Below are positions 253-43,445 of a stretch of 64,000 bases of DNA, piece after piece. The notes beneath the pieces were generated by a model, which had not been told where the DNA came from, did no database searches, and worked only from the letters and a program-made list of their open reading frames with translations. The stretch spans positions 1 through 64,000 of the forward strand of contig NZ_QEYD01000001.1 in assembly GCF_003122215.1 (NCBI RefSeq). The letters are read 5' to 3'. A program made the position numbers and the translations under genes. Origin of the DNA: Pararhodobacter marinus. Its GTDB lineage: Bacteria > Pseudomonadota > Alphaproteobacteria > Rhodobacterales > Rhodobacteraceae. The stretch's first letter is position 1. The number at the start of each line of letters is the position of its first letter.

Positions 253-265
253 TTCATCACATATC
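253..265 (-). promoter_or_regulatory. Recurrent 13-base motif TTCATCACATATC, upstream of etfB
   Basis: An exact copy of the motif lies 80 bases upstream of the etfB start and just beyond the end of the IclR gene. Read in the gene direction it is GATATGTGATGAA. The same word recurs upstream of other operons in the window (exact again at 32025). Function is inferred: an operator for a shared regulator, or a conserved promoter element. Confidence 0.5.
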
Positions 266-273
266 GGCTTCGA

Positions 274-1083
274 CTAGACCTCGGGCAGCCGAGAGATGTG
301 CTCGTCGAGCAGTGCCACCAGTTCTTCCTTGCGGGCGTTCATCGAACGGCTATGCCCGCAGATGGCGATGGCGAGCGGTGGCGAATGGGGCAGCAGCGGC
401 AAGGGCATGGCCAGCACCGCCCCGCCACGGGTGATGACGCTGCGCCCGACATAGGCGTACCCCGACCGCCGGACGTCCTCGACCGCGGCGAGCACATCGG
501 CCACGGAGACCGGAGGCTCGGCCTCGGGACGCTCGGCGTTGCTGCGCAGGACGATTCGGGTGATCTCGCTCTCCTTGAAGCGGGTCAGGATCGCGTAGCC
601 CGTCCCCGAGCGGATCAGCGGCCGCGTGGTCCCCATCATCAGGTGAATTGCGTCCGGACCCGGCGCTTGCTGGACGTGGATGTACTGCGACAGCAGGCCG
701 TTCTGCGCCGCCAGCATGATGGTCTCGCCCGTCGCCTCGCCCAGGGCCCGCAGGATCAGGCTGAGCCGTCCCTCGCCGAATACGTCGCGATTGACCCAAT
801 TGCCCAGCACCGATACGCGCGTCGTCGGGATATAGCTGCGCCGGTCAGGGATGTAGTGCAGGTAGCCTATCAGCTTCAGGCTGCGCAGAAGCGCCGCGCA
901 GCTCGATTGCGGATAGCCCAGGGCCTCGGCGATTTCGACCACCGTCGCGTCGCGCTGCAATTCGTCGAAAAGCTCGAGAATGCGGATGGTCCGCCCGGCG
1001 GACTTGACCACCGTCTCCGGCATCGGTCCGAGCGATCCGATCACCCGTGCGTTCTGTTCGATCCGGACCTTTGGTCGCGCCAT
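274..1083 (-). CDS. IclR-family transcriptional regulator (paralogue 1)
   Basis: A 269-residue protein with an N-terminal winged helix-turn-helix (about residues 30-88, with [15 protein letters not shown] as the recognition helix region) followed by an IclR-type effector domain. The ATG at 1083 (MARPKV) is preferred over one 48 bases upstream because AAGGAG sits just before it. It follows the OYE gene after 44 bases and is probably the last gene of the operon starting at 5284. It closely resembles the IclR proteins at 8483 and 18287 (shared VKSA..., PQSS and PT-RV segments). IclR proteins bind small aromatic or aliphatic acids; the ligand here is unknown. Confidence 0.88.
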
Positions 1084-1127
1084 CCCTGTCTCCTTCGCGC
1101 CCAGTGTCGCGCGCGAGGAAGCCGCGT

Positions 1128-2213
1128 TCAAGCGAGACGCGCGCGACTGGCCGGATCATAGGCCTCAAGGCGCAGCCCGCGGCGCAGCCGGTCCGGCAAG
1201 TCGGGGTGCTGCAGGAACTGGCGGCCCGCCGCAACGAGGTCGATCTCGCCTGAAGCGATCAGCGCTGCGGCACGCCCGGCGTCACCTGCGGGCGCGAAGC
1301 CGAAGCTGCCGACCGCGATGACCGGGCAGCCGGTCAGGTGCCGCGCCCAGCCCGCCAGAGTCCGGTCGGAGCCCTCGAATGCCGGCTCCCAGAAGCGCCG
1401 CGTGCTGGCGTCGAAGATGTCTACGCCGGCCTGGGCGAGAGGGGCGAGCAGGACCGCGAGTTGCACGGGCGTCTCGGCCAGGCGCGCCTTGTAATCCTGC
1501 TGCTTGTGCTGGGAAAAGCGGAAGATCACCGGGAAGCCGGGGCCCACCACCTTGCGGATCCGCTCCACCACCGCGACGGCAAAGCGCAGCCGCCCCTCGG
1601 CGGTGGCGCCCCAACGGTCGGTTCGACGATTGGCGCCGGGCCACAGGAAAGCGTCGATCAGATAGCCATGCGCGCCGTGGATCGCCACGCCATCGAAGCC
1701 GATGCGCCGGGCGGCCGCGGCGCCCTGTCCGAAGGCCTCGATCACATCGGCGATGTCTGACTCGGTCATCGGGCGGGTCGGGGCCTCGACAGCGCGCATA
1801 TGGGCGGCGTCATAGCTGGTGACGCCTGCCCTGCCCCAATGGCCGGATGGACGCATCGAAGTGCCCGGCGCCCGGGGATCGCGCAGCGGTCCCTGATGCC
1901 AGAGCTGCGGCACGATCCGCGCCCCCGCCGCCTGCACGCCCTCGACGACGCGACGCCAGCCTGCTTCGGGCCCCGGCAGGGCGATCTGCGGCAGGTCGGC
2001 GGCGTCAAGGGCAGCGGGATGCGGGATGCCGGTGCCCTCGGTCACGATCAGGCCCGCCCCTCCTTCGGCCCGCCGCCGGTAATAGGCGGCAACGTCGGCG
2101 CCCGGGACATGCCCGGGCGAGAAATGGCGCGTCATCGGCGCCATGACCAGACGGTTGCGCAGACGCAGACCGCCGCCCGAGAAGGGCCGGAACAGCGGCT
2201 CGACCGGGCTCAT
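1128..2213 (-). CDS. NADH:flavin oxidoreductase, Old Yellow Enzyme family
   Basis: A 361-residue FMN-dependent TIM-barrel enzyme. Family features visible are the N-terminal LRLRNRLVMAPMTR, the substrate-binding HGAHGYLIDAFLWPGANRRTD segment (kept short here: HGAHGYL then FLWP and N-R-D), and a C-terminal AAGRQFL phosphate-binding segment. Such enzymes reduce activated C=C bonds, for example of 2,4-dienoyl-CoA or enones, with NAD(P)H. The ATG at 2213 overlaps the crotonase stop as ATGA, so the two are translationally coupled. In a beta-oxidation operon a dienoyl-CoA or enone reductase role is likely, but the FeS/FAD domain of true 2,4-dienoyl-CoA reductase (FadH) is absent. Confidence 0.85.
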   Translation of the reverse strand: MSPVEPLFRPFSGGGLRLRNRLVMAPMTRHFSPGHVPGADVAAYYRRRAEGGAGLIVTEGTGIPHPAALDAADLPQIALPGPEAGWRRVVEGVQAAGARIVPQLWHQGPLRDPRAPGTSMRPSGHWGRAGVTSYDAAHMRAVEAPTRPMTESDIADVIEAFGQGAAAARRIGFDGVAIHGAHGYLIDAFLWPGANRRTDRWGATAEGRLRFAVAVVERIRKVVGPGFPVIFRFSQHKQQDYKARLAETPVQLAVLLAPLAQAGVDIFDASTRRFWEPAFEGSDRTLAGWARHLTGCPVIAVGSFGFAPAGDAGRAAALIASGEIDLVAAGRQFLQHPDLPDRLRRGLRLEAYDPASRARLA

Positions 2214-3004: not shown

Positions 3005-3005
3005 G

Positions 3006-5284: not shown

Positions 5285-5370
5285 ACCTTTGCTCCTGCCG
5301 TCCTTGCGTCAGCGCAATCTTGCGCGATGCCTTCGGGCGGCACCAGTCACGGCCGTCCCGGGGGTGTCGA

Positions 5371-5383
5371 TCCATCGCATACC
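5371..5383. promoter_or_regulatory. Degenerate copy of the 13-base motif (TCCATCGCATACC) in a divergent promoter region
   Basis: Ten of 13 positions match TTCATCACATATC. It sits 87 bases upstream of the leftward ACAD start (5284) and 92 bases upstream of the rightward MaoC start (5475), a good position for one site to control both operons. The regulatory role is inferred. Confidence 0.35.
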
Positions 5384-5474
5384 TGTTCAGTGCCCGCCCT
5401 CGGCCGCCGGCCGCTGGCCTGAACGCGCCCAGAGCCACAAGTTGCGCCGGTGACACCGCAAGGGGAGAGCCTGG

Positions 5475-8463: not shown

Positions 8464-8482
8464 GGCGGCCGCGAGCACAAGG

Positions 8483-9337
8483 TCAGAGCCCGGCCACCCG
8501 GGCTTGACAATAGCTCTCGATCCCGCCGTCGAAATCGAACACCCGCATCGCCGAGCGCATCAGCGAGGTCAGGCGGCGGGTCTCGCCCTCGATCATCTCG
8601 CGCGGGCCGCCAAGCGCCAGCGTCAGCGGCTGGGTCGGGTCCGAGCTGGGCAGGGCCATGGCAATACAGCCGGTGCGTGGCCCCTTCGGGGGCAGGGACA
8701 ATGCGTAGCCCTGCTTGCGGACCTGCTTGATCCGCTCCATCACCTCGGTGTGCGTGAAGCGGATCTCGTCGGGGGCTGACCAGGCATTGGTCGCCGTGAC
8801 AACGCGGCGGATCTCCGCGTCCGACAGGCCGGCGAGGATCACTTCACCCGCCGCGCAGCGGGTCAGGTTGCGTTCGGTACCCAGCGTCAGGTGGACTGAT
8901 CGCTCGGCCACCCGAGCGCAATTCGACTGGACGATCTCGATATACTTGGCGTTGCGCCCGTTGCGGGTGGCCAGCAGGACGATGGCGCCGGTCTGCTCGT
9001 TGAGGATATCCATCATCCGCCGCAGCTTCGACCGCCCGAACAGGTCGCCGTCGATCCACGACCCGAACAGCGCCACCCGCCGTGTCGGCACGAAGGTGCG
9101 CTTGCGGGGGTCGTGGTGCAGCAGGCCCATCGACACCAGCGTCCGCAGGATCGCCGACGTGCTGGACTGCGGGTAAGCGAGGCGCTTGCAGATTTCGATT
9201 ACCGTCGCCGGGCGCTGAAGTTCATCGAAGACCTCGAGGATCTGCACCACGCGGGCCGCGCTCTTGACGGCATCGTCGGGGATGTCGGGACGGCGGCCGA
9301 CAACGAACATGTCCTCGGGGATCCACTTTTTCGGCAT
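8483..9337 (-). CDS. IclR-family transcriptional regulator (paralogue 2)
   Basis: A 284-residue protein: winged HTH near residues 25-85 (VKSAARVVQILEVFDEL, then YPQSSTSAILRTL) and an IclR effector domain. The start at 9337 (MPKKW) has AGAGG eight bases upstream; an in-frame ATG 45 bases earlier has no comparable site. It converges on the end of ACAD pair B and lies just downstream of the long 17435-9477 operon, either of which it could control. The 139 bases upstream (9338-9476) contain a weak ATCACAT core at 9428. It is a close paralogue of the IclR proteins at 274 and 18287. Confidence 0.88.
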   Translation of the reverse strand: MPKKWIPEDMFVVGRRPDIPDDAVKSAARVVQILEVFDELQRPATVIEICKRLAYPQSSTSAILRTLVSMGLLHHDPRKRTFVPTRRVALFGSWIDGDLFGRSKLRRMMDILNEQTGAIVLLATRNGRNAKYIEIVQSNCARVAERSVHLTLGTERNLTRCAAGEVILAGLSDAEIRRVVTATNAWSAPDEIRFTHTEVMERIKQVRKQGYALSLPPKGPRTGCIAMALPSSDPTQPLTLALGGPREMIEGETRRLTSLMRSAMRVFDFDGGIESYCQARVAGL

Positions 9338-9476
9338 ATCTGGCACCTCTGGGTAGCGAACGCGTTGGTTTTTGATACCCATCAGAATGCCCCAGACTCG
9401 CCCGCGTGGAACAAGGCTGTCGCCAATATCACATCCATGAATGCCTCGCGGCTGCCCATGCGCGATCCGGACCGCG

Positions 9477-17528: not shown

Positions 17529-18287
17529 TCATGTGTTTTGTGCCGCCCGGTCGCCCGCGACAAAGGCGCCGGCGCGGGCCCGCAGTTCGTCCGAGCCGGC
17601 CAGGGGCCGCACCAGCCTGCGCTCCAGTGCCAGCCCCTCCGCGAGAGTCATCTCGACCCCTTCGCGGATCGCCCGGCAGGCAGCGGTCACCGCGGCGGCC
17701 GGATGCGCGGCGATCCGCGCGGCGATGGACAGCGCGGTGTCCAGCGCCTGCCCGGTGTCGGCACGTCTGGAAACGACCCCGAGGGTCAGCGCCTCGCCGA
17801 CCGTCATCGGTTCGGCGGCGAGAATCGCCAGCGCGGCACGGTGTCTCCCGGTGGCGCGGGCCAGCCGCTGTGTGCCCCCGCTGCCGGGGATGAAGCCATA
17901 GCGCACCTCGGGCAGGGCCAACACCGCATCGGATGCCGCGACGATGATGTCGCAGGCCAGCGCCAGCTCGAACCCGGCTCCCCAGGCGCCGCCTTCGATG
18001 GCCGCGACCACCGGCAGGTCGGTCTCGGCCATGACGCCGGCCAGACGGTCGACGCTGGCGAGCCGCTGGTCAACATGGCTCGTCGCGCTCTCGGCGAGGT
18101 CGGCCCCCGCCGAAAAGACCCCGCCTGCCCCCGACAGCACGATTACCCGGTCCGCTGCTTGCCGGGCGATGATCGCCTCGGCCAATGCATCGCGCAGCGG
18201 CATGGAGATGGCGTTGCGCTTCTCGGGGCGGTTCAGGGTCAAAAGCAGGATCCCCGGCCCCGGACGCGTCCTTTCCACCAGCGCCAT
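17529..18287 (-). CDS. Enoyl-CoA hydratase (crotonase 4)
   Basis: A 252-residue crotonase starting MALVERTRPG at 18287, overlapping the IclR stop by one base (TGATG). It retains RPEKRNAIS, VFSAGADLAE, GGAWGAGFE and the first catalytic Glu in LALPEVRYGFIPGSGGTQRL, which is the canonical hydratase pattern; the second Glu position is Leu (RAALAILAA). A hydratase or delta3-delta2 isomerase is likely. It is cotranscribed with IclR 3; a 93-base gap separates it from SDR 2. Confidence 0.87.
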   Translation of the reverse strand: MALVERTRPGPGILLLTLNRPEKRNAISMPLRDALAEAIIARQAADRVIVLSGAGGVFSAGADLAESATSHVDQRLASVDRLAGVMAETDLPVVAAIEGGAWGAGFELALACDIIVAASDAVLALPEVRYGFIPGSGGTQRLARATGRHRAALAILAAEPMTVGEALTLGVVSRRADTGQALDTALSIAARIAAHPAAAVTAACRAIREGVEMTLAEGLALERRLVRPLAGSDELRARAGAFVAGDRAAQNT

Positions 18288-19081
18288 CACGCTACTCTCG
18301 GGTGGCGGGCAAGCGTCCCGGCAGAGCCATGCAGTTGGTCCGAGAAACGGCGTTCGCAACTCCGGATCGCCTCGGGCGAGCCTTCGATGCCCAGCACCAG
18401 ATGCTGGCGGTCGCGCCCGCCGATGATCGCCAGTCCCGCGGTGCCCTCGGCGGCGCCAGGACCAGTGAAATATCCGCGCGCACGCTCGGCCTGCAGCGCG
18501 TCGAGGAAGGGGCGGATGGCGATGGGGGTGTCCTCGCCCGCACTCTCGGCGTTGAGCCGTCGCAGAATGGCGGCGACGTTGCTTTCCTCGGCCTGTGCCA
18601 GCAGTGCGCGTCCGGTAGCGGTTTTGGTGACGGGGTGCAGGGCGCCGATTGGTATTGGCGCCGCCTGCCGCGGTTGGGCGACGTAGATGTATTGCGCGAA
18701 AAGTCCGTTGGCGGTGGCCATCACCACCGTCTGCCCGGTGCGCAGCGCCAGGTCATCGACCGTTTCCAGCAGCCGCCCTTCCTGCACCGTCGCCGAATCG
18801 ACCCAATGTCCAAGAAGCGACACCCGTCGGGTCGGAAAATACGTACGGCTCAGGCGGTCCTGTTGAAGATATCCCAGCGATACGAGGCTTTGGAGCAGCG
18901 CCGAGGTGCTGGACTGCGGCAGCCCCAGCGCCCGCGCGACCTCCAGCACACTGGCTTCGCGCCGCACGGCGTCGAAGAACTCGAGGATCTGCAGGGTGCG
19001 GCCTGCGGACTTCACGACCGGTCCGAGGCAGCCGGTTCCGGTCGCGGCAACCCGGTCAGGCGCCACGGCGTGTAGTTGCAT
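18287..19081 (-). CDS. IclR-family transcriptional regulator (paralogue 3)
   Basis: A 264-residue regulator with an N-terminal winged HTH (VKSAGRTLQILEFFDAV, then LPQSSTSALLQSL at about residues 24-75) and IclR ligand domain. It has the same VKSA...PQSS...PTRRVSLLG spacing as the two other IclR proteins in the window. It is coupled to crotonase 4 by a TGATG overlap. A motif-like site (19210-19222) lies 129 bases upstream of its start, consistent with autoregulation. Ligand and target are not deducible. Confidence 0.88.
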   Translation of the reverse strand: MQLHAVAPDRVAATGTGCLGPVVKSAGRTLQILEFFDAVRREASVLEVARALGLPQSSTSALLQSLVSLGYLQQDRLSRTYFPTRRVSLLGHWVDSATVQEGRLLETVDDLALRTGQTVVMATANGLFAQYIYVAQPRQAAPIPIGALHPVTKTATGRALLAQAEESNVAAILRRLNAESAGEDTPIAIRPFLDALQAERARGYFTGPGAAEGTAGLAIIGGRDRQHLVLGIEGSPEAIRSCERRFSDQLHGSAGTLARHPRVA

Positions 19082-19451
19082 GATTCAGGTTCCTCCGTTC
19101 CGCGCGGGCCTTGCGCGGGGCCGGGCCGCGTTGCAGCCGGGCCTTTCCTTCGGATGACGCTATCGGGCGCGAGGAAGCCGGTAAAGCGGGGCCGGCGGCA
19201 CCCCGGATTTTCGACACATATGTAGATTGCCCGAACAGGCGACGTCATCGTGCCCGTCAGCGTACCATCCGGCGGATGAAGGCGAAGCGTAGGAAATCGC
19301 CAGAAAGTTGCGCGAAGGGTGCTGTGAGGCGTCCTCTCTCTTTCTCCTCCCGCGGCGAGGCCATTCCGCCAAGGATGTGATGAAGGACGGTTCGGGCTGG
19401 CCCGCGAGCCCGAACCGCGGGCAGGATACCGCAAACGGAATGGAGGGCTTC
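19082..19451. other. 370-base divergent intergenic region
   Basis: No convincing gene is seen between the leftward IclR 3 start and the rightward NAD-binding protein. It holds the motif-like site at 19210-19222, including the palindrome ACATATGT, and a GGAGG at 19442-19446 serving the 19452 start. It probably contains two divergent promoters; no clear -35/-10 pair could be assigned. Confidence 0.5.
19210..19222. promoter_or_regulatory. Motif-like site TTCGACACATATG upstream of IclR 3
   Basis: It matches TTCATCACATATC at 10 of 13 positions and extends into the palindrome ACATATGT. It is 129 bases upstream of the IclR 3 start. Proposed as a regulator-binding site; not demonstrated. Confidence 0.35.
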
Positions 19452-20942: not shown

Positions 20943-21015
20943 GGAGGGCTCCGCAAGTTGGGGGGTCGGCCCGGAGGCTAGACCGCCGACGCGCGATAGG
21001 CAAACCGCGCCCGCG

Positions 21016-21028
21016 TTCATCACGTCCA
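21016..21028 (-). promoter_or_regulatory. Copy of the 13-base motif (TTCATCACGTCCA) upstream of crotonase 5
   Basis: The first eight bases are identical to TTCATCACATATC and the match is 10 of 13. It is 74 bases upstream of the crotonase 5 start and 56 bases upstream of the divergent thioesterase start. Regulatory role inferred from recurrence. Confidence 0.4.
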
Positions 21029-21083
21029 TGCGGAACGCGGGCCTGCCCGCGCGCGCGGACCGCAGGCATGCCAGAATGCTGCG

Positions 21084-29917: not shown

Positions 29918-29930
29918 TCCATCACATATC
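29918..29930 (-). promoter_or_regulatory. Copy of the 13-base motif (TCCATCACATATC) upstream of the aldolase operon
   Basis: Twelve of 13 bases match the consensus. It lies 98 bases upstream of the aldolase ATG and overlaps the last codons of the MDR gene, so the last residues of that protein may be constrained by the site. Role inferred. Confidence 0.5.
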
Positions 29931-30953
29931 CGCCATTTCGAGGCTGAGAACATGTTTGCCGAACCCCGCGCCGGCGAGCATCGCCACGAAGGCCGCGGGA
30001 AGTGTCTCGAACCCATGATGGCGCGTGATGTGCCACTGCAAGCAACCTCGCGCAGCCATGTCGCGCAGCGCGGCGAGCGGTTCGGCATCATCTTGATCGT
30101 AAATCGAGAACGGCAGGATGCGGACCGCACGGGCCAGAAGCTGCCGGAAGTTGACCAAGGCGACCGGCTCATTGTCCTGATAATGTTGCTTCAGGCCGCA
30201 CAGCACGACGCGGCCAAAGCGCTTCATGGCGCCCAGCGCCGGGTCCAGCGTTGCGGCGCCGACATTTTCGAACATCAGGTCGAGGCCTTCAGGCGCGGCC
30301 TGCGCGAGTTGCGCCGTCAGGTCGCCGGACTGGTAGTCAAGGACGGCGTCGAACCCTGCGACTTCGCGCAGCCAACGGGCTTTCGCGGCGCCTCCGGCGA
30401 TGCCGATGACCCGGGCACCGCGGTCCCGCGCAATCTGGCCCGCGATGCTGCCCACCGCACCGGCCGCGCCGCTGACCAGCACCGTCTCGCCGGGCTGCAC
30501 CTGACCGATACGCACCATCCCCAGCCAGGCGGTGACGCCCGAATGGCCCAGCGCGCCGAGAAACGCGGCACCGTCTGCGGGTTCCTTCGGCAGCCTGCTC
30601 AGCGCTGCGGCGGGTCCGGTCACTAGCTCACGCCATTCCGCGAAGCCCAAGACCCGCGCGCCCGGTGCCAGAGCCGGATCGCGAGACGAGACGACACGCC
30701 CGACCACGCGACCGATCACCGGCTTCGGGTCGGGATCGGCATCGAATTCCATCGCCGCCATGCGCAGTGCCAGGTAGGGATCGAGCGAGATGTGTTCGAC
30801 TCTGACAATCGCGTCGCCGGGCCCGGGCGGGCGGACAGGGACCTCGGTCACGGCAAGATCCTCCGCCCGGATAAGACCGGCCGGAGGTCGGATCAGCCTG
30901 ACGGCCCGGGTGTGCGGCGGCTGGTCCGCGCCCCCGGGCCAATGCCCGGTCAC
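29922..30953 (-). CDS. NADP-dependent medium-chain (MDR) enone reductase family protein
   Basis: A 343-residue zinc-free MDR of the leukotriene-B4/prostaglandin reductase-like (CurA/YncB) group: LDPYLALRM near the N-terminus, VSGAAGAVGSIAGQIARDRG as nucleotide-binding motif (about residue 155-175), and FENVGAATLDPAL. No catalytic-zinc ligands are seen. It would reduce the C=C of an enone or 2-enal with NADPH. GTG start at 30953 overlaps the receptor stop as GTGA, so translation is coupled to an upstream transporter gene, an unusual pairing. Confidence 0.88.
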   Translation of the reverse strand: MTGHWPGGADQPPHTRAVRLIRPPAGLIRAEDLAVTEVPVRPPGPGDAIVRVEHISLDPYLALRMAAMEFDADPDPKPVIGRVVGRVVSSRDPALAPGARVLGFAEWRELVTGPAAALSRLPKEPADGAAFLGALGHSGVTAWLGMVRIGQVQPGETVLVSGAAGAVGSIAGQIARDRGARVIGIAGGAAKARWLREVAGFDAVLDYQSGDLTAQLAQAAPEGLDLMFENVGAATLDPALGAMKRFGRVVLCGLKQHYQDNEPVALVNFRQLLARAVRILPFSIYDQDDAEPLAALRDMAARGCLQWHITRHHGFETLPAAFVAMLAGAGFGKHVLSLEMADM

Positions 30954-31912
30954 AGCAGGCCGGCTTCGCGCAGGGCGGTATCCCAGACCTGGAAATCGTC
31001 CCGGATGCGAGCGTCGAGCTCGGCGGGCGTCGTGGTCATCGGCTCGAAGCCAAACCCGGCGATGCGCTCGGAAACCTCGGGCTGGGCGATGATGGCGGCG
31101 ATCTCGGTGCTCAGACGGTCCAGTATCGCCGCATCCGTCCCGGCGGGCGCGACGATGCCGAACCAGCTGCCGACGTCATAGCCCTCGACCCCGGCCTCCT
31201 GCAGCGTCGGCACGTCCGGCAGGGCGCTGATGCGCTCGGACGTACCGACGGCGACGATCTTCAGCTGCCCGTCGTTCATGTACTGGATCGGCGCCAGGGC
31301 GCCTGCGAAGGCGAGGTCGATGGCGCCGGACAGGATGTCGGTCATCATCGGCGCGGTGCCCTGATAGGGGATATGCTGCATCTCGATCCCGGCGCGTTCC
31401 TGGAACACCTCGCCGGCAAGATGTGTCAGCCCGCCCACGCCGTCCGAGCCGTAATTCAACTCGCCCGGGTGGTTGCGCGCATAGTCCAGCAGTTCCTGGA
31501 TGTTCGAGACCTCGAAGCTGTTGCTGACCGTCAGCACCAACGGCACCAGCGCCAGCATCGTCACGCCGCTGAAATCGTCGGGCGCGTAGGGCGGCGTCTC
31601 GCCGTGCAGGTCACGCACCCCGGCCATCGTCGACGAGGTGCCGAAAAGGATCGTGTAGCCATCGGCCTCGGCCTGCGACGCATGCACCGAGCCGATTGTG
31701 CCGGCCGCGCCAGGCATGTTCTCGACGATCACCGGCTGACCCAGCGCATCCGACAGCGGCGCCGCGACGAGGCGGGCGAGCGTATCGGTGTTGCCGCCAG
31801 CGGGATAGGGCACGACCAGGGTGACCGGCCGGCTTGGCCAGTCCTGCGCGATGGCGGGGCCTGCCATGAGGGCGAGCGACGCGGCGGCGGCGGCGTATTT
31901 CCACGATGACAT
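30950..31912 (-). CDS. tctC: Orphan TTT periplasmic receptor TctC (Bug family)
   Basis: A 320-residue secreted protein: signal peptide with AAAAASLALMAGPAIAQ, then VTLVVPYPAGGNTDTLARL and VENMPGAAGTIG of the Bug family. Two adjacent ATGs exist; the one at 31912 has GGGAGG at six-base spacing. No tctA or tctB lies in this operon, so it must use another locus's permease or act as a sensor receptor. It heads an operon with MDR, aldolase, ligase and bicupin, suggesting that its ligand is their substrate. Confidence 0.9.
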   Translation of the reverse strand: MSSWKYAAAAASLALMAGPAIAQDWPSRPVTLVVPYPAGGNTDTLARLVAAPLSDALGQPVIVENMPGAAGTIGSVHASQAEADGYTILFGTSSTMAGVRDLHGETPPYAPDDFSGVTMLALVPLVLTVSNSFEVSNIQELLDYARNHPGELNYGSDGVGGLTHLAGEVFQERAGIEMQHIPYQGTAPMMTDILSGAIDLAFAGALAPIQYMNDGQLKIVAVGTSERISALPDVPTLQEAGVEGYDVGSWFGIVAPAGTDAAILDRLSTEIAAIIAQPEVSERIAGFGFEPMTTTPAELDARIRDDFQVWDTALREAGLL

Positions 31913-32024
31913 CATGTTCCTCCCACGGATCAGGTCAAGGCGGCCCGGCAACCGGGCCCGGCCTCCGGGTGATTACCGCACGAAGGCCTCGGCCCTACTA
32001 GCGGCAGCACAGCGGGGCTGCGGC

Positions 32025-32037
32025 TTCATCACATATC
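32025..32037 (-). promoter_or_regulatory. Exact copy of the 13-base motif TTCATCACATATC upstream of the orphan tctC
   Basis: It is identical to the site at 253-265 and lies 113 bases upstream of the receptor start. Two identical 13-mers in 64 kb, both in promoter position, are very unlikely by chance (order of a few per thousand). Role inferred. Confidence 0.5.
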
Positions 32038-32071
32038 TGACGCAGACTTGGCTGGCGATGCCGCCAGAGCG

Positions 32072-33073: not shown

Positions 33074-33094
33074 GTCACTCTCCGGCGGTCTTGG

Positions 33095-33116
33095 CCCGCC
33101 CCGGGGACGGGGCGGG
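33095..33116 (-). terminator. GC hairpin after the truncated tctC
   Basis: Perfect 8-base-pair stem CCCGCCCC / GGGGCGGG with a six-base loop, between the receptor stop (33140) and the dehydrogenase start (33073). No T-run; likely an attenuator or processing hairpin. Confidence 0.55.
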
Positions 33117-33139
33117 AGAGGGAAGGCGGGATGCGGCTG

Positions 33140-34069
33140 TTACTCCAGCGCGATGCCCATGCGCTGAATGTCCTCGCGCCAGAGCGACATGTCGGCTTCG
33201 ATGAAGGCTGCGAAGCCGTCGGGCATGCGGATCGCGTAATGCCCGGCATCATTCAGCGTCTGGTCCATGGTGCTGCGGACCGCAGCAAAGGCCCGGGCCA
33301 GCCGGGTCACGACGGCTTCCGGGGTGCCGGCCGGGGCGAAAACGCCGAACCAGGTGCCGCCGACCATGGTGGGATAACCCAGTTCGGCGAAGGTCGGCAC
33401 GTCGGGGGTCAGCGCGATCCGTTCATCCCCCGCCACGGCGAGGATGTTCATGTTCGGGATGCTGGCCGAGTTCTGCGAGGCACCGGTCATCTGCATCTGC
33501 ACCCGGTTCGAGCTGAGATCCGGGATCGCCGCGCCCGAGCCCGGATACGGCACCCGCGTCAGTTCGATCCCCAGGGCATGTTGCAGCCGTCCGGCCAGCA
33601 ATTCCGTGGGCGAGGCCTGGCCAAGCGAGACATAGTTGATCTCGGCAGGGTGCGCCTGCGCGTAGGCCACGAAACCCGGAATGTCGTCGAACGGCATCTC
33701 TCGGTTCATGATCAGGAAATACGGCTGTTGCGAGACCGGGGCGACCGGCACCAGATCGTCCATCGTATAGAGCGGACTGCGGTAGGCCAGCGTGTTCAGC
33801 GTCACCACCGAGGTGGTGAACAGCAGTTCGTAGCCATCGGGCCCGGCGCGTGTCACGCGCTCGGTGCCGACCAGCGTGCCACCGCCGCTGGCATTCTCGA
33901 TGATGATCGGCACGCCCAGTTCCTCGCTCAGCGCGGGCTGGATCATCCGTGCCAGCACATCGGTCCCGCCGCCCGCGGCATAAGGCACGACCAGCGTGAT
34001 CGCGCGGTCGGGAAAGGCGTCCTGCGCACCGGCCGGACCGGCGGCGACGACCAGCGCGGTGAGGGCGGG
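33140..34069 (-). pseudogene. tctC: Bug-family receptor (TctC) with truncated signal peptide
   Basis: The mature protein is complete: FPDRAITLVVPYAAGGGTDV through SLWREDIQRMGIALE. However, the signal peptide begins abruptly (IPALTALVVAAGPAGAQ): its Met and basic n-region are missing. The only ATG in frame (34147) lies inside an antisense tctA remnant and would give a polar leader HHRAQNEAQKHRRGG, unlike a signal sequence. The break is at about 34068-34070. As it stands the protein is unlikely to be exported normally, although Arg residues plus the remaining hydrophobic stretch might still work by chance. Confidence 0.7.
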
Positions 34070-34297
34070 TATGCGATGCGGGTCTTCGCCTTCCCCGCCG
34101 CGCCGATGCTTCTGGGCTTCGTTTTGGGCCCGATGATGGAGGAGCATTTCCGGCGCGCCATGATCTTGTCACGCGGGGACCTGATGACCTTCGTCGAGCG
34201 CCCGATCAGCGGGACGATCATCGCCGTTACCCTGCTGATTCTGCTTGCAAGCGGCTGGTCTGCCCTGCGCCGGTGGCGCCGGGCCCGCGCCGCCTAG
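34070..34297 (+). pseudogene. tctA: C-terminal remnant of a TctA permease
   Basis: The plus strand encodes about 75 residues, GYAMRVFAFPAAPMLLGF..., continuing through LGPMMEEHFRRAMILSRGD and ending ALRRWRRARAA. This is the end of TctA, closely like the intact protein at 23231 (LLLGFILGPLMEEHLRRSM). The first five-sixths of the gene are gone. It begins exactly where the reverse-strand tctC begins, so both were cut at one recombination breakpoint. Its stop overlaps the ACAD stop on the other strand. Confidence 0.85.
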
Positions 34298-36460: not shown

Positions 36461-36463
36461 GAC

Positions 36464-37237
36464 TCAGACGCTCTGGAAAGCGCCGCCGTCGATGGACATC
36501 ACTTGCCCGGTGATGAAGCTCGCCGCCTCGGACAGCAGGAAACAGATCGGCGAGGCTGCCTCGTCCGGGGTCGAGAAGCGGCCCATCGGGATCTTGGCCA
36601 GCACGGTCTGTCGGAACTTGTTGCCGCGGATGGTGGTGGTCATCTCGGTCTCCACGACACCGAAACAGACCGAGTTGATGCGAATACCCAGCTTGGCCCA
36701 TTCGTGCGAGGCGCTGAGCGTCATCCCCAGAAGCGAGGCCTTGGCGGCGGCATAGTTGATCTGGCCGATGCTGCCCTTGCGGCCGGCATTGGACGAGACA
36801 TTGACAATCGCGCCCGGCTCTGGCTGTCCCGCCTCGGCCTGTTTCATCATCTGCAGGCCGACCGTCTTCAGACACTGGAACACCGCCGTCTGGTTCACCC
36901 GGATCACCGCGTCCCAGTCATCCAGCGTCATGTTCTTGATCATCGCCGGCCGGGTGATGCCGGCGTTGTTCACCAGACCGTCAATCGCGCCGAAGGTCTC
37001 GACCGCCCTGACCACCATCGCGTCCAGAAATGCCTGATCGCAGACATCGCCCCGCAGCGCCAGCACCCGGTCGGCGCCGAACCGCAAGGCGAGATCCTCG
37101 ATCCCCTCCGGCTTCAGGTCGACGGCGACAACCGATCCCCCCAGCTCCAGCACCATCTCGGCCGTTGCCAGCCCGATCCCCTGCCCGGCCCCGGTGATGA
37201 CCACCGCCTTGCCTGCCAATGCCATCGGGTTCTTCAT
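36464..37237 (-). CDS. Short-chain dehydrogenase/reductase (SDR 3)
   Basis: A 257-residue classical SDR. GGAGG lies five bases before the ATG at 37237. TGAGQGIG is at residues 15-22, VDLKPE provides the cofactor Asp, and NYAAAK after NVSSNAG supplies Tyr and Lys. GVVETEM, TIRGNKF and PICFLLSEAASFITGQ are shared nearly word for word with SDR 2, marking recent paralogy. The likely reaction is oxidation of a 3-hydroxyacyl-CoA. A motif copy is 100 bases upstream, so it probably heads its own operon. Confidence 0.88.
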   Translation of the reverse strand: MKNPMALAGKAVVITGAGQGIGLATAEMVLELGGSVVAVDLKPEGIEDLALRFGADRVLALRGDVCDQAFLDAMVVRAVETFGAIDGLVNNAGITRPAMIKNMTLDDWDAVIRVNQTAVFQCLKTVGLQMMKQAEAGQPEPGAIVNVSSNAGRKGSIGQINYAAAKASLLGMTLSASHEWAKLGIRINSVCFGVVETEMTTTIRGNKFRQTVLAKIPMGRFSTPDEAASPICFLLSEAASFITGQVMSIDGGAFQSV

Positions 37238-37336
37238 CGCATCCTCCACGGGTGTCCTTTCGGCGTGGCCTTGCCTTCTGCCAAAGCCTAGCGCCTCCTC
37301 GGGCGCGACCACCGCGAATACGGCGGCGGCCCGACA

Positions 37337-37349
37337 TTCATCACATACG
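37337..37349 (-). promoter_or_regulatory. Copy of the 13-base motif (TTCATCACATACG) upstream of SDR 3
   Basis: Eleven of 13 bases match. It is 100 bases upstream of the SDR 3 start, in the short gap after the thiolase-like gene. Role inferred. Confidence 0.45.
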
Positions 37350-37369
37350 CATCGCGCGGCGAACCGGCG

Positions 37370-38527: not shown

Positions 38528-38898
38528 GCGCCGGCCTCCACCGGGTCGAAGACCACCAGCGGCAGATCGCCGTCATCGACGATCCGGGCCTTGACGCGCA
38601 TCCCGATGGTCACCGCCTCGGCGGGCAGGCCCTCGACCCGGCTCATCATCCGGACGCCCTCGTCCAGATCGACGAGCGAGACGTTGTAGGGCCCCTGCGG
38701 CGGTTTCCGACTGATCGCGGTCGCGGCGTAGACGGTGCCGAAGCCCGACACCTCGGCCCATTCCAGCGGCTTGCCAGTCCCGGGCTCGGCGAAACGGGGG
38801 TAATAGACGAACCTGCCGCTTTCGACGCCGCGCTGGATCATCAGACGGCCGTCGCGCAGGTGGTTGAAGAACTCGGTATCGGGCGAGGGGGTCTGCAT
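38524..38898 (-). CDS. DUF35/OB-fold acyl-CoA-associated protein
   Basis: A 124-residue protein with the DUF35 layout: N-terminal helix (FFNHLRDGRLMIQR), a rubredoxin-like loop and a C-terminal OB-fold (GFGTVYAATAI, VRMMSRVEG, VKARI). The usual four zinc-binding Cys are missing (ESGRFVYYPRFAEPGTG stands in their place), so the zinc finger is lost though the fold may remain. DUF35 proteins are partner subunits of thiolase-like enzymes and MaoC hydratases in steroid side-chain degradation. It is sandwiched by overlaps with ligase 2 (TGATG) and the thiolase-like gene. Confidence 0.85.
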   Translation of the reverse strand: MQTPSPDTEFFNHLRDGRLMIQRGVESGRFVYYPRFAEPGTGKPLEWAEVSGFGTVYAATAISRKPPQGPYNVSLVDLDEGVRMMSRVEGLPAEAVTIGMRVKARIVDDGDLPLVVFDPVEAGA

Positions 38899-41015
38899 CA
38901 GCGCACTCCTGCGTTGCTGTCGACGAAAAGCGTGTCCACGACCATCGCGCCTTGCCCTTCGGGGTAGAGGATGACCGGGTTGAGGTCGATTTCGGCAAAG
39001 CGGTCGCCGGTCTGCGTGACCAGCGCCGAGACCCCCGCGACAATCCCCGCCAGCGCCTCCAGATCGACGGGCGGACGGCCGCGCGCGCCCTGCAGGATCT
39101 CGATCCCCTTCAGCGAGTGGATCATGCCCAGCGCCTCGTCCCTGCCGACCGGCAGCGGCAGCACGGCAGAATCCCGCAGGATTTCGACATAGACGCCGCC
39201 GAAACCCAGCATGACGACCGGACCGAAGTCCGCGTCGCGGGTCATGCCGACCACCATTTCAATGCCCGCAGGCGCCATCTTCTGCACCTGCACACCGTCG
39301 ATGCGGGCGCCCGGCGCGGCCTGTGCCACATTGGCCAGGATCGTCGCGTACCCACGGCGCGCGGCCTCGGGATCGGCGACGTTCAGGAAGACGCCGCCCG
39401 CCTCGGTCTTGTGGGCGATGTCGGGGCTCTCGATCTTCAGCACCACCGGGAAGCCCATCTCCTCGGCCAGCGCCGCCGCCGCATCCGCCGAGGTGGCGAG
39501 ACCCACGGGAGGGGTCGGGATCGCGTAGGCCTTCAGCAGGTCGGCCGGCGGGGCACCGGGATCGACCGTCGCTGCGGGGACCAGCGGGCCGCGGCCCTGC
39601 TCCCGCGCGGCGAGGAACGCGCCATAGCCCGCCAACGCCCGCAACCCGCGTCCGGCAGCGCCGAGCGTCTGGTAGAGCCCGCCGATCTCGTCCAGTGCCT
39701 CCAGGTTCTCGGGATGCGGCAGCCCGGCGGAATGGAACAGGATCGGTATGCGCCGCGCCGCCAGCAGCGGCGCCAGAACCGCGCGCATTCCCTTGACGCG
39801 GCCGGGGGCCGAGAACGAGACGATCACCAGCGCCGCGTCGAACTCGCCCGAGGCCTCGACCTCCTGCAACACGGCGCCGAGCCCCGCGCCGCCATCCTCG
39901 ACCACCGCCGCGGTCACGTCGATCGGATTGGCCGACGAGCCATAGCCCGGGATTATCGCATCGAGCCGCTTGCGCAGCGCGGGCGACGGCTCGGGCACCT
40001 CCAGCCCCTCGCCCGAGACGATGTCGGCCGCCCAGCCGCCTGTCCCGCCCGAAGTGGTGACCACCGCGACCCGCCTGCCGCGCGCAGGCGGCAGCTTCGC
40101 GAGGGCGGCGGCGGCGGCGAGCATTTCCTCGGGCGTTGACACGCGGATCATGCCGAGGCGCCGGAACACCGCGTCGTAAATGGCGTCAGAGCCGGTCAGA
40201 TGCGCGGTGTGCGAGATCGCCGCCCGCTGACCGGCGTCCGACTTGCCGATCTTGTTGATGATGATGGGCACGCCCTGCGCCGCCGCCTTTTCCGCCAGCG
40301 ACTCCAGCGCATCGACGTTCTTGAACCCTTCCACAAACATCAGGATTCCGCGCGAACCGCCCGTCGAGAGCAGGTAATCCGCTACCTCGATGGCGCCGAG
40401 ATCGGCCTCGTTGCCGGTCGTCACCACATGGCGCACCGGAATCCGCTCCAGCAGGGCGCGAACGTGCAGCGCAAAGCCCAAGCCCCCGCTCTGGCAGACG
40501 ATATCGACACCCTCGGTGCAGGGCCGATACGCGGGTCCCCGCGCGCGTATCCATTCAGTGATGATCGGGCTGAAGCTGGCTGCGACCCCGTTCGCATCGC
40601 TGTAAAAGCCCAGCGTGTTCGGCCCCAGGATCCGCATGCCGCTCTGCGCCGCGATCTCGGCCATGCGGTGCTCGGCATGGGCATTGCCGCCCTCGGCAAA
40701 ACCCGAGGCGAAGACCAGCGCCCCGCCGACGCCCCGCGCCGCACAATCCTCGAGCGCCTCGATCACCTTGTCGGCGCCGATGACGATGATCGCCAGGTCG
40801 ACCGCCTCGGGCACCTCGGCCAGCGAGGCGAAGGTCTTCAGGCCCAGGATCTCGTCGGTGCTGCGGCTGATGGGATATATCCGCGCCGCAGTCGCGCAAT
40901 CAGTCAGGGCGCGCATGATGCGGCCCCGGATCTTGGTCAGGTCGGCCGACGCGCCGATCACGGCGATAGACCCGGGATTGAACAATCTTTCCAGTCCGGA
41001 CACAGTATTCTCCAT
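38898..41015 (-). CDS. NDP-forming acyl-CoA synthetase (fused alpha-beta), ligase 2
   Basis: A 705-residue enzyme: CoA-binding domain with SIAVIGASADLTK near residue 16, central ligase domain with IVCQSGGLGFAL and the phospho-His loop ISHTAHLTG, and ATP-grasp domain with HKTEAGGVFL ending IDLNPVIL. It would form acyl-CoA with ATP to ADP. The ATG at 41015 has only a weak ribosome site. It leads the operon ligase-DUF35-thiolase-like, so it likely activates the acid whose side chain those two shorten. Related to but clearly distinct from ligases 1 and 3. Confidence 0.9.
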   Translation of the reverse strand: MENTVSGLERLFNPGSIAVIGASADLTKIRGRIMRALTDCATAARIYPISRSTDEILGLKTFASLAEVPEAVDLAIIVIGADKVIEALEDCAARGVGGALVFASGFAEGGNAHAEHRMAEIAAQSGMRILGPNTLGFYSDANGVAASFSPIITEWIRARGPAYRPCTEGVDIVCQSGGLGFALHVRALLERIPVRHVVTTGNEADLGAIEVADYLLSTGGSRGILMFVEGFKNVDALESLAEKAAAQGVPIIINKIGKSDAGQRAAISHTAHLTGSDAIYDAVFRRLGMIRVSTPEEMLAAAAALAKLPPARGRRVAVVTTSGGTGGWAADIVSGEGLEVPEPSPALRKRLDAIIPGYGSSANPIDVTAAVVEDGGAGLGAVLQEVEASGEFDAALVIVSFSAPGRVKGMRAVLAPLLAARRIPILFHSAGLPHPENLEALDEIGGLYQTLGAAGRGLRALAGYGAFLAAREQGRGPLVPAATVDPGAPPADLLKAYAIPTPPVGLATSADAAAALAEEMGFPVVLKIESPDIAHKTEAGGVFLNVADPEAARRGYATILANVAQAAPGARIDGVQVQKMAPAGIEMVVGMTRDADFGPVVMLGFGGVYVEILRDSAVLPLPVGRDEALGMIHSLKGIEILQGARGRPPVDLEALAGIVAGVSALVTQTGDRFAEIDLNPVILYPEGQGAMVVDTLFVDSNAGVR

Positions 41016-41099
41016 GACGGGCCGAGAGCCTCGGCCATGTGGGGGCGACCCTAGACCCGGCCGCCCCTGTCGCAACCGGAATGGCCCCAGACACCCCCG

Positions 41100-41112
41100 T
41101 TCAGCAGATACG
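41100..41112 (-). promoter_or_regulatory. Weak motif-like site (TTCAGCAGATACG) upstream of ligase 2
   Basis: Nine of 13 bases match the consensus and its position (85 bases upstream of the ligase start) fits the other sites. It also lies in a small CAGCA/TGCTG inverted repeat. Low confidence. Confidence 0.25.
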
Positions 41113-41132
41113 TGCTGGCTGCCGCAGGGGGG

Positions 41133-42356
41133 TCAGGCGAGCCGCTCGAACACCGCGGCAAGGCCCTGCCCGCCGCCGATGCACATGGTTTCCAGCCCGT
41201 AGCGAACCTCGCGCCGCGCCATCTCGCGCAGAAGCGTCGCCAGGATGCGCCCGCCCGTCGCGCCGACAGGATGACCCAGCGAAATGCCCGAGCCGTTGAC
41301 GTTCAGCCGCTCGAAATCGGCAGGGCCGAAACCCCATTCGCGGGTGCAGGCGAGGACCTGCGCAGCGAAGGCCTCGTTCAGCTCGATCAGGTCGATGTCG
41401 GCCAACGTCAGGCCGACCCGCACCAGCGCCTTCGCTGTCGCGGGAACCGGACCGATGCCCATCCGTTTGGGCGGCACTCCGGCAACGGCCCAGGACACCA
41501 GCCGCGCGAAGGGCCGGAGCCCCAGCGCCTCAGCCGTGGCGCGGGTGGTGACGATGGCCGCCGAGGCGCCGTCGTTCTGGCCGCTGGCATTGCCCGCCGT
41601 CACCGTCGCGCCGGGGTCCTCGCGGCCCAGGATCGGGCGCAGCATCGACAGGCTCTCGACCGTGGTGCCGGGCCGCGGGTGTTCGTCGCGGTCGATCCGC
41701 AGCACCGCACCGTTGCGGCTGGGCACATCGACCGGCACGATCTCCTCGGCAAATCGCCCGTCCTCCTGCGCCGCCATGGCCCTCCTGTGCGAGGTTGCGG
41801 CCAGCGCATCCTGTTCCTCTCGCGGGATGGCGTGGTCGCGGCGCAGGTTTTCGGCACTTTCCAGCATGCCTCCAGGGACAGGATAGTGCCGTCCGCCTGC
41901 CGTCACCCGTCCCCGCGCAAGCGAATCGTGCAACTCAAGCGCCGCCCCCCGGATTCCCCAGCGCGCGCTGGTCGAGAAAAAGGGCGCGTTGCTCATCGAT
42001 TCCGCGCCGCCCGCGATCACCAGATCCGACGCCCCCGTTGCCACCTGCATTGCCGCGTAGATCACCGCCTGCAGGCCCGAGCCGCAGCGCCGGTCCAGTT
42101 GCAGCCCCCCGGTCTCCACGGGAAGACCCGCATCCAGCCCGACCACACGGCCCAGCGCCGGCGCGTCCATCGACGGGTAGCATTGCGCGAAAATGACGTC
42201 GTCGACGCGCTCGGGCGGCAGACCTGTCCGCGCCAGCAATCCGCGCAGGACCGCCGCGCCCAGCGCCTCAGGGGGCAAGTCGCGGAATTGCCCACCGAAG
42301 CGCCCGACCGCGGTGCGCATCGGTTCGCAAATCACCACCTCGGCCAGCGCGTTCAT
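41133..42356 (-). CDS. Acetyl-CoA acyltransferase (thiolase)
   Basis: A 407-residue thiolase with all catalytic residues: nucleophile Cys91 (RRCGSGLQA), His362 (GHPVGATGGR) and Cys392 (CIGGGQG), plus NEAFAAQV. It cleaves 3-ketoacyl-CoA with CoA to acetyl- or propionyl-CoA and a shortened acyl-CoA, the last step of beta-oxidation. The start at 42356 overlaps the crotonase 6 stop (ATGA), with GGGAGC as ribosome site. In contrast with the neighbouring thiolase-like protein this one should be a normal thiolase. Confidence 0.93.
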   Translation of the reverse strand: MNALAEVVICEPMRTAVGRFGGQFRDLPPEALGAAVLRGLLARTGLPPERVDDVIFAQCYPSMDAPALGRVVGLDAGLPVETGGLQLDRRCGSGLQAVIYAAMQVATGASDLVIAGGAESMSNAPFFSTSARWGIRGAALELHDSLARGRVTAGGRHYPVPGGMLESAENLRRDHAIPREEQDALAATSHRRAMAAQEDGRFAEEIVPVDVPSRNGAVLRIDRDEHPRPGTTVESLSMLRPILGREDPGATVTAGNASGQNDGASAAIVTTRATAEALGLRPFARLVSWAVAGVPPKRMGIGPVPATAKALVRVGLTLADIDLIELNEAFAAQVLACTREWGFGPADFERLNVNGSGISLGHPVGATGGRILATLLREMARREVRYGLETMCIGGGQGLAAVFERLA

Positions 42357-43126
42357 TGCTCCCACCGCGGCGCCCGATGCTCGACAATCGCGCGCGCGGC
42401 CTCCTTCGCGTCAGGCGAGGCATTGCCGATCGTGGTGTAGAGTTGCTCGACGCGGTAGCCTTCGGCGAGCGGCAGTTCCGCCGTCAGGCGCAGGCTTTCC
42501 TTACGCAGCCGCATCAACACTGGGCTCTTTGCCGCAAGGCTGTCGGCGACCTGATACGCGGTCGCCAGAAGGTCGCATTGGGGGACCACCTGGTGCACGA
42601 CGCCGAAACGCTCCAGATAGGAAGCATCGACGCGTTCCCCGGTCAGTGCCATGTATTCCACCACCTTGCGCGGCAGAACCCGGCCAATGTGGACTGATCC
42701 GCCCAGCACGCCCACATTGATCTCGGGCAGCGCGAACGTGGCAGTATCGGCGGCGATCAGGATGTTACATTGCGCGGCGATGATGAAGCCCGCCCCCATC
42801 GCTGGCCCGTTGATCGCCGCGACGACCGGAACCGCGCATTCCTGCACCGCGCGATATGTCCGGCGGCTTCCTTGCAGGCGCGTGCGCGCCATCTCCGGCG
42901 TGCGCTGGCTCAGCGCCTTCGTGTCGGCACCGGCAATGAAAGCGCGGTCCCCGGCGCCGGTCAGGATCACCACGCGCACCTCTGGGCGGTTCTCGATCCC
43001 TTCGAAGATCTCGGAGAGCAGGCGGTAGACATCGACGCTCATGGCGTTGACTGGCGGGCGGTCGATTGTGATCAGGAGAACCCCCGGATGGGCGTCCGAC
43101 ATCTCCTCGCGAACGTTCCCATCCAT
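42353..43126 (-). CDS. Enoyl-CoA hydratase (crotonase 6)
   Basis: A 257-residue crotonase starting at 43126 (MDGNVREEM) with AGGAGG nine bases upstream; an in-frame TTG 30 bases earlier is less likely. It has RPPVNAMSV, AFIAGADTKAL and NGPAMGAGF, and keeps the first catalytic Glu (ALPEINVG); the second Glu is shifted by one residue (VVEYMALTG). With the coupled thiolase it makes a two-gene beta-oxidation unit. The upstream region has a motif copy 86 bases from the start. Confidence 0.87.
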   Translation of the reverse strand: MDGNVREEMSDAHPGVLLITIDRPPVNAMSVDVYRLLSEIFEGIENRPEVRVVILTGAGDRAFIAGADTKALSQRTPEMARTRLQGSRRTYRAVQECAVPVVAAINGPAMGAGFIIAAQCNILIAADTATFALPEINVGVLGGSVHIGRVLPRKVVEYMALTGERVDASYLERFGVVHQVVPQCDLLATAYQVADSLAAKSPVLMRLRKESLRLTAELPLAEGYRVEQLYTTIGNASPDAKEAARAIVEHRAPRWEQ

Positions 43127-43445
43127 GGTCGTTTGCCTCCTCGCTGGCCAGATCAATGGAGCTGAGCAAACAACGCGAACTTGGGCCAGCGATCAAGAAC
43201 GGAGACCCGCGTTCAATCACATATCTGCAAAGCGCGGTCAACCGATCACACGAGCGTCCTCTTCTCGGGCGTAATTTCTGGCTGACGCCGAGAGGCTCGA
43301 TGGCGTGGTCGTCTGGGGCTGTTCGGACATACTACTTTCCTGCCGTTGCTCAAAAAGTTGGTGTCACCTTTTCCTCGATCCGCAAATTTCTCGGAGCCGC
43401 CCCGCGGCAACGCAACATCAGAACCGGAGGATGCGATCGGATATC
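43127..43445. other. 320-base AT-richer non-coding stretch: promoter region plus foreign DNA
   Basis: No supported gene. The right-to-left reading start holds the crotonase 6 promoter and its motif (43212-43225). From about 43230 the base composition drops (28 G+C of 60 in 43321-43380, against roughly 40 of 60 around), consistent with imported DNA flanking the gene fragment that ends at 43446. No inverted terminal repeats or transposase were found. Confidence 0.55.
43212..43225 (-). promoter_or_regulatory. Copy of the motif with one inserted base (TTCAATCACATATC) upstream of crotonase 6
   Basis: It equals the consensus with one extra A after TTCA, keeping the ATCACATATC core. It is 86 bases upstream of the crotonase 6 start. 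TTGACC stands 12 bases further upstream (gene direction), giving no well-spaced sigma70 promoter. Role inferred. Confidence 0.45.

Follow-up and report, generated by a model that had tools for sequence, protein, structure and literature searches.

A recurrent word in the promoter gaps of an acyl-CoA catabolic cluster of Pararhodobacter marinus, predicted to be an operator of an IclR subfamily

Introduction

When a short word recurs near the starts of the operons of a gene cluster, the question arises whether the recurrence reflects a regulatory protein that reads the word or is an artefact of base composition and of selection by eye. The question is raised here by the first 43 kb of a stretch of 64,000 bases from Pararhodobacter marinus (positions 1 to 64,000 of contig NZ_QEYD01000001.1, assembly GCF_003122215.1; “the window” means this whole stretch), where an acyl-CoA catabolic cluster encodes three IclR proteins, called IclR1, IclR2 and IclR3 below. 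An earlier note on the window had proposed that a 13-mer, TTCATCACATATC, found exactly at 253 and 32025, and its imperfect copies form a shared operator or promoter element, perhaps read by the IclR paralogues. The analysis described in the present work indicates that the word is very probably the operator of the IclR subfamily to which these proteins belong. The tie between word and IclR paralogues, at first a guess, now appears to be a strong inference from their co-occurrence in sequence data.

An IclR subfamily for which no described operator was found would thereby gain a predicted operator and a predicted regulon, which would provide a handle on large acyl-CoA catabolic clusters.

Results and Discussion

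The word and its sites

Alignment of 18 sites, ten from the window and eight from relatives, yields a 15-mer, TTCATCACATATnTG, which consists of a palindromic core, CACATATSTG, and a single TYCR arm. The 15-mer (TYCRWCACATATnTG) is sharply bounded, since the information drops to noise on either side of it, and the aligned sites have nothing in common in the flanks beyond the 15 bp. The core occupies positions 6-15, and the TTCAT arm is present on one side only. Within the arm, T is conserved in 16 sites, Y in 18, C in 16 and R in 18, and variation on the TYCR pattern is confined to Y at the second position and R at the fourth. The predicted operator sites of the window are as follows; the strand is that which carries the word arm first, and the score is that of a leave-one-out matrix.

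253..267, plus strand: TTCATCACATATCGG, between IclR1 and a minus-strand gene called etfB in the earlier note (start near 173); score 21.9
5371..5385, plus strand: TCCATCGCATACCTG, in the divergent gap between an acyl-CoA dehydrogenase (ACAD) gene (minus strand) and a MaoC gene (plus strand); score 18.0
19210..19224, plus strand: TTCGACACATATGTA, upstream of IclR3; score 13.6; TAGCGT 47 nt downstream
19370..19384, minus strand: TTCATCACATCCTTG, upstream of an NmrA-like plus-strand gene (start near 19440); score 19.0; no TAGNNT in 110 nt
21016..21030, plus strand: TTCATCACGTCCATG, upstream of a crotonase gene ending at 20139; score 13.3; TTGCCT-17-TAGCCT downstream
29918..29932, plus strand: TCCATCACATATCCG, upstream of a class II aldolase gene; score 21.4
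32025..32039, plus strand: TTCATCACATATCTG, upstream of an orphan tctC gene (30950-31951); score 27.2; dyad 7/10
37337..37351, plus strand: TTCATCACATACGCA, upstream of an SDR gene (36464-37312); score 20.4; TAGGCT 46 nt downstream
41100..41114, plus strand: TTCAGCAGATACGTG, upstream of an acetate--CoA-ligase-type gene (38898-41075); score 15.2; TAGGGT 46 nt downstream
43213..43227, plus strand: TCAATCACATATCTG, upstream of a crotonase gene (42353-43156); score 20.1
9425..9439, plus strand: AATATCACATCCATG, a weak candidate in the gap upstream of IclR2, with a partial core and no arm; matrix score 6.7, under every cut used

The ten sites thus score between 13.3 and 27.2, and the one at 32025 has both the top score and the highest symmetry in the window. 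Nine of the ten carry the arm-first word on the plus strand and face a minus-strand gene, while the tenth faces a plus-strand gene. A recount against the 13-mer bore out most of the earlier site list (one mismatch at 29918, two at 37337, three at 5371 and at 19210, nine of 13 bases matched at 41100, and at 43213 either two mismatches without a gap or one inserted base at 43212). The copy at 21016 (TTCATCACGTCCA), given as 10/13, has four mismatches and is therefore 9/13, and the minus-strand site at 19370-19384 before the NmrA-like gene had been overlooked.

Three local features of these gaps were also seen. The aldolase site shares bases with the stop codon of a zinc-type dehydrogenase gene (29922-30953), and the gap that holds it was extended to 29935 so that the site could be counted. 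At 21084-21515, inside a stretch counted as gap, the plus strand has an open frame of 143 residues whose third-position GC is high; should this frame be a gene, the 21016 site would lie in a divergent promoter gap. The start of the window is the end of contig C11, and the first gene (called etfB) is thereby cut to 57 residues, a fragment for which Pfam gave no match; the cluster may continue onto another contig.

Overrepresentation of the word

The earlier note held that such recurrence is unlikely by chance, and this was borne out: the 13-mer occurs exactly twice in the genome of 4,486,134 bases, both times in the window, and shuffled sequences fall short of the observed counts. With up to three mismatches, the 64 kb contain 15 matches, compared to 5.18 in shuffles (none of 100 reaching 15). 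The non-coding part of the cluster was represented by 16 gaps of at least 30 bp in the first 43.3 kb, with 2,803 non-coding bases in all and with gene starts assigned from reading frames and Pfam domain limits. The gaps of positions 1-43300 hold seven matches at up to three mismatches, compared to 0.285 expected, and none of 400 dinucleotide shuffles reaches seven.

Because the word had been picked after it had been seen, all words of the gaps were also set in competition with one another. When words were weighted by composition, the 13-mer and its neighbours won at widths of 9, 11 and 13, and the best word was reached in none of 40 shuffles. Cruder, unweighted word counts were less uniform: at up to two mismatches the word stands out (seven gaps, against a maximum of six in 60 shuffles), at up to one mismatch it does not (four gaps, matched by one of 60 shuffles), and at up to three mismatches a GC-rich word wins with 11 gaps, a number matched by 11 of 60 shuffles.

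Genome-wide, the three places that match with at most one mismatch all lie inside the window. At up to two mismatches there are 42 matches (one for the reversed control), of which six lie in the window, that is, in 1.4% of the genome, so the motif is not at the background frequency that the earlier note had named as a refuting outcome. Eleven of the 42 are copies of another word, GATATTTGAGGAA. Loci were available for 24 of the 36 places outside the window, and a reading-frame heuristic found little or no coding signal at six of the 24, five of which are GATATTTGAGGAA.

Co-occurrence with an IclR subfamily

If the word is read by IclR proteins of one subfamily, its abundance in other clusters should follow the presence of that subfamily. 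A matrix built from the window sites only was applied to the annotated gaps of related clusters with a cut of at least 17 bits. In eight clusters that encode the IclR subfamily there are seven gap matches, compared to 0.18 in shuffles (none of 200 reaching seven), and one match outside gaps in 184 kb. The seven are spread over five of the eight clusters, those of Tistrella pTM2, Variovorax boronicumulans and Sphingomonas being without any; two of the plasmid loci (L083 and L091) are related and have two sites in common. Four similar clusters without the subfamily (Paraburkholderia, Comamonas, Terrarubrum and Azospirillum, the last with a distant IclR) gave no gap match, where 0.13 would be expected by shuffling and about five, as reckoned by hand, at the rate of the clusters that have it.

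The exact core alone gives the same picture. For CACATATSTG there are 19 matches in 26 loci with the IclR subfamily (705 kb; 0.71 expected), which include the window and amount to about 22 distinct regions, three having been read in two halves and one of these being also L088; 12 of the 26 have at least one exact core. The 16 control loci (371 kb; 0.41 expected) yield a single match, although ten of them had been picked around matches of the word itself; the stretches that served only as controls around pattern matches were G000:C4, G003:C48, G004, G009, G013, G080 and G137. The motif is thus conserved upstream of operons in related clusters, as the earlier proposal would require, and far oftener where the same IclR subfamily is encoded.

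The exact core or word stands in promoter gaps of IclR-subfamily clusters of Variovorax PBL-E5 and SRS16, Tistrella pTM1, Pseudosulfitobacter, Paracoccus and Pontibrevibacter. The plasmid of Variovorax sp. PBL-E5 carries a recognisably similar cluster (tctC, thiolase, OB-fold protein, two acetate--CoA ligases, SDR, crotonases, paired acyl-CoA dehydrogenases, MaoC, IclR and nitronate monooxygenase), with TTCATCACATATGTG in the dehydrogenase/crotonase gap (score 27.3) and weaker sites before the ligase (14.2), before tctC (13.9), in the MaoC/IclR gap (14.2) and before the monooxygenase (10.1). Variovorax sp. SRS16 has sites upstream of ligase and ACAD genes. On pTM1 of Tistrella mobilis, the exact 15-mer of the window's tctC site precedes a TRAP-MmgE-ACAD-CoA-transferase row that ends in a gene of the IclR subfamily.

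The prediction was then tried on three fresh loci, chosen as the least alike of those remaining, and the exact core was found in promoter gaps in two. In Rhizobium gallicum, the IclR frame is immediately preceded by a perfect 20 bp palindrome, TTTAACACATATGTGTTAAA, and another divergent gap holds the exact core once more, as CACATATGTG. In Sulfitobacter pontiacus, the gap between the ACAD and IclR genes holds an exact core and a copy with one difference, CACATATGTA, 21 bp apart.

Some related observations concern the same clusters. Core pairs 42 bp apart occur in Tistrella (L130 6026/6068, L133 14851/14893 and L134 15084/15126), one member of each lying within TCCACATATGTGGA, and the pairs are present even though the Tistrella IclR has a different recognition helix (PVSS; PISS is also seen among the Tistrella helices). 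In the ABC-transporter/MmgE gap of Variovorax boronicumulans (L085, 14053-14140) a 20-mer with CACATACGTG is present in two inverted copies at a distance of about 68 bp, which are possibly a variant of the same operator for a more distant IclR. The aldolase loci of Pelagibius and Hyphomicrobiaceae gave only matches with two mismatches to TATGTGATGAA. A “tandem” once listed for Pseudosulfitobacter at 20 bp was dropped, since a recount gave 25 bp between centres.

The three IclR proteins

The candidate readers in the window are as follows.

274..1131, minus strand: IclR1, Pfam HTH_IclR and IclR_C, supported by the subfamily alignment
8483..9262, minus strand: IclR2, Pfam HTH_IclR and IclR_C; the frame runs to 9589 and the start is set from the alignment
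18287..19081, minus strand: IclR3, Pfam HTH_IclR and IclR_C, supported by the subfamily alignment

All three exceed the Pfam cut-offs for both domains, and they are the sole DNA-binding regulators among 40 Pfam-scanned frames of 1-43.3 kb, a set that includes part of the small frames. They align with the IclR proteins of other acyl-CoA clusters and have in common with them a recognition helix of the type PQSSTSALL. The subfamily recurs in acyl-CoA clusters on plasmids of Variovorax, Sulfitobacter-type bacteria, Paracoccus, Tistrella and Rhizobium. The models for BhcR, PcaR/PcaU/PobR, IclR, KdgR and AllR gave at best 67 bits against curated cut-offs of 251-406, and on this test the proteins fall outside all these groups.

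Within the genus, no close orthologue of IclR3 was found (the best is 41%), and among 394 genomes of the family only two, its own included, have one at E <= 1e-45; judged by this test, the cluster is not conserved in the genus. The pattern GATATGTGATGNA occurs in six of 18 genus genomes, with one copy each outside the genome analysed here. A family-wide count of RTATGTGATGRA (a match in 131 of 248 genomes, the reversed control being zero in all but about 14 rows, as judged by eye) is uninformative because that word is common in itself.

Comparison with known IclR operators

The published operators of the family fall mainly into two classes, according to a survey of 1,340 IclR proteins (Suvorova and Gelfand 2021, PMC8222616). 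Group 1 has the pattern GKTYCRYW3-4RYGRAMC, in which half-boxes KTYCRY stand 3-4 bp apart, and group 2 the pattern TGRAACAN1-2TGTTYCA. The word described here resembles group 1 as given there in that its arm TYCR is part of the half-box, in that its core is palindromic, and in that it precedes both the gene of the regulator itself and neighbouring operons. It differs in that the arm flanks a conserved 10 bp, CACATATSTG, instead of 3-4 A/T bases, and in that this core is better conserved than the far arm; the leading K of the half-box is not conserved in the 18 aligned sites, and its final position is T, A or G. With group 2 it has in common the palindromic nature of its core, whereas the box order and sequence TGRAACA N1-2 TGTTYCA were found by a loose pattern in none of the ten window sites. 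A loose pattern of the group 1 and group 2 spacings matched none of the ten window sites and three of 24 sites in relatives. The tandem spacing of 18-22 bp given for IclR sites (PMC8222616) was seen once, in the Sulfitobacter pair 21 bp apart. Word searches, which logo-only motifs escape, found no open-licence paper that links the core with IclR; two papers in which the core appears beside a transcriptional regulator of unspecified family look unrelated.

The predicted operator would be composed of the palindromic core and, in the window, a TYCRW arm on one side, with some relatives having a full 20 bp palindrome. If the spacing holds, it would add one more operator architecture to the family. 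More tentatively, and somewhat against the balance of likelihood, it may be proposed that the three IclR paralogues share one operator code, through which different acyl-CoA or acid signals would act on one set of nine or ten promoters, and that TYCRW-CACATATSTG is a third IclR operator architecture whose boxes are pushed apart by the conserved 10 bp core and which moves together with the subfamily between Alpha- and Betaproteobacteria, in many cases on plasmids.

Promoter distance and mode of action

The position of the word relative to the promoter bears on whether its reader would activate or repress. Four sites of the window are followed by a hexamer that resembles a -10 element and may act as one.

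37285..37290, minus strand: -10-like TAGGCT, 46 nt downstream of the 37337 site
41048..41053, minus strand: -10-like TAGGGT, 46 nt downstream of the 41100 site
19157..19162, minus strand: -10-like TAGCGT, 47 nt downstream of the 19210 site
20975..20980, minus strand: -10-like TAGCCT, 35 nt downstream of the 21016 site

TAGNNT is present within 110 nt downstream in five of 12 sites, namely in these four and, at 46 nt, in Variovorax. A shift test with a -10 matrix on 11 sites gave 46 nt as the best common distance (p = 0.046). At the usual spacing, two of the four putative promoters (SDR and IclR3) have no TTG-type -35 element, and the other two have TTGCCT and TTGCGA. If TAGNNT were the -10 element (-12 to -7), the centre of the site would lie near -68 and in one case near -57, positions that differ by about one helical turn and that an upstream activator would be expected to occupy. 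Such proteins exist in the family, for MhpR, PcaU and PobR are IclR activators that act on a catabolic operon from an upstream site. The mechanism proposed here would be analogous, that is, positive regulation of a catabolic operon from upstream. The motifs listed for the three activators in the survey (PMC8222616) are of another type, and the window proteins score far under the NCBIfam cut-off of PcaR/PcaU/PobR. Activation from the upstream site is the weakest link in the argument, and its odds may be put at about even.

The strongest rival keeps the same operator and the same IclR readers but reverses the sign: the bound protein would block RNA polymerase until an acyl-CoA inducer releases it. 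Members of the family may repress, activate or do both (PMC8222616), and promoter overlap is conceivable both in Sulfitobacter pontiacus and Rhizobium, where the sites are within about 70 bp of the IclR start, and in Pseudosulfitobacter, where the site is 42 bp from the MmgE start, so that repression is possible above all in relatives in which little distance separates site and start codon. Those window sites that have a -10-like hexamer sit 35-47 nt upstream of it, and two of the four have no TTG-type -35, an arrangement that activation fits somewhat better; repression is on the whole less likely than not.

Weighing of the operator assignment

The assignment of the word to the IclR subfamily, whatever the sign of its effect, has to be weighed against a number of observations that tell against it or against the activation model attached to it. 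Dyad symmetry in the window is weak (3-7 of 10 pairs); in relatives it reaches 10/10 in one Rhizobium site and up to 9/10 in Tistrella. Several of the 19 core matches are orthologous copies, and 14 of the 26 loci with the subfamily have no exact core, including the Tistrella regions with the best model-scoring IclR. The pTM1 site is changed in a sister Tistrella despite 95% identity across the region. High matrix scores are also found within genes, namely 19.3 in L129 and, beyond the stretch used for the gap test, 20.4 in the control L092. All that the third fresh locus, that of Roseovarius indicus, offers is CATATATGTG, which lies in the gap that follows IclR. As for the promoter distance, TAGNNT is absent within 110 nt in seven of the 12 sites (five of the nine minus-strand window sites, the plus-strand site and the Variovorax ACAD site), and a further 13 rows, taken from relatives and opposite strands, include just two near the common distance, the SRS16 ligase (45 nt, a near copy) and Tistrella (48 nt, TACAGT).

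It is most improbable that the word is instead the operator of another regulator that travels with the clusters, such as a LysR or TetR protein. A LysR gene adjoins the IclR gene in Variovorax, and the window has LysR-type genes at about 54-56 kb; the latter, however, are in the half of the window that has no sites, the IclR proteins have the regulatory field of 1-43.3 kb to themselves among the scanned frames, and in Rhizobium and Sulfitobacter the core immediately precedes the IclR gene. That the word is instead a promoter element for a special or general sigma factor is even less probable: the TAGNNT hexamer at 46-47 nt in four of 12 sites and at 35 in a fifth is what would suggest such an element, whereas the word is nearly confined to this cluster in the genome, tracks the IclR gene across classes, has a palindromic core that is perfect in some relatives, and points its arm to the gene in the window but in the opposite direction in Tistrella and Pseudosulfitobacter. 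The idea that the word is a small dispersed repeat or a product of chance can practically be dismissed, for although the word is short, was chosen by eye and failed to stand out in one crude count, the similarity ends sharply at 15 bp with no common flank, shuffles fall short of it and the motif recurs in other species.

Extent of the predicted regulon

Under the IclR operator assignment, the word would mark the promoter gaps of about nine operons in one 43 kb acyl-CoA catabolic cluster and so define a single local regulon that regulates itself, with co-regulation of these operons as the prediction; both the binding and the operon limits in this scheme are deduced. The 5371 site would lead an ACAD-ACAD-crotonase-OYE-IclR1 row, taken as one operon from gene order. 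Self-regulation is likely because IclR1 belongs to that row and IclR3 lies directly behind the 19210 site; IclR2 has only the weak 9425 candidate upstream. The effector would be expected to be a CoA ester or free acid of the pathway. The survey describes IclR proteins as generally regulating themselves and one or two adjacent operons (PMC8222616), compared to which the nine gaps of the window are more.

The ten sites lie in nine of the 16 gaps, which have full-matrix scores of at least 19, while the best score in the other seven is at most 10.8. The earlier claim that the motif marks operon starts across 43 kb is therefore to be narrowed to these nine gaps. The matrix scan found no good site in the gaps before tctBAC (22653 onward) and before the tctC receptor gene at 33140-34147, nor in five others, including that upstream of IclR2, and none above 12.4 in the 43.3-64 kb part of the window. 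Positions 43300-64000 carry tctBAC, CoA ligase, crotonase, MmgE/PrpD and CoA-transferase genes for a second time, accompanied by LysR-type regulator genes; as no score there exceeds 12.4, the regulon appears to stop near 43.2 kb.

A second dispersed word

Of the word GATATTTGAGGAA there are 11 copies in the genome, ten of which were read (L005, L008, L010, L014, L020, L021, L023, L026, L027 and L029, in each case at 1501-1513). In the copies read, CAAAGA or CAAATA comes next, and in most of them CCCCCGAG or CCCCCGG stands before the word; some copies lie outside reading frames.

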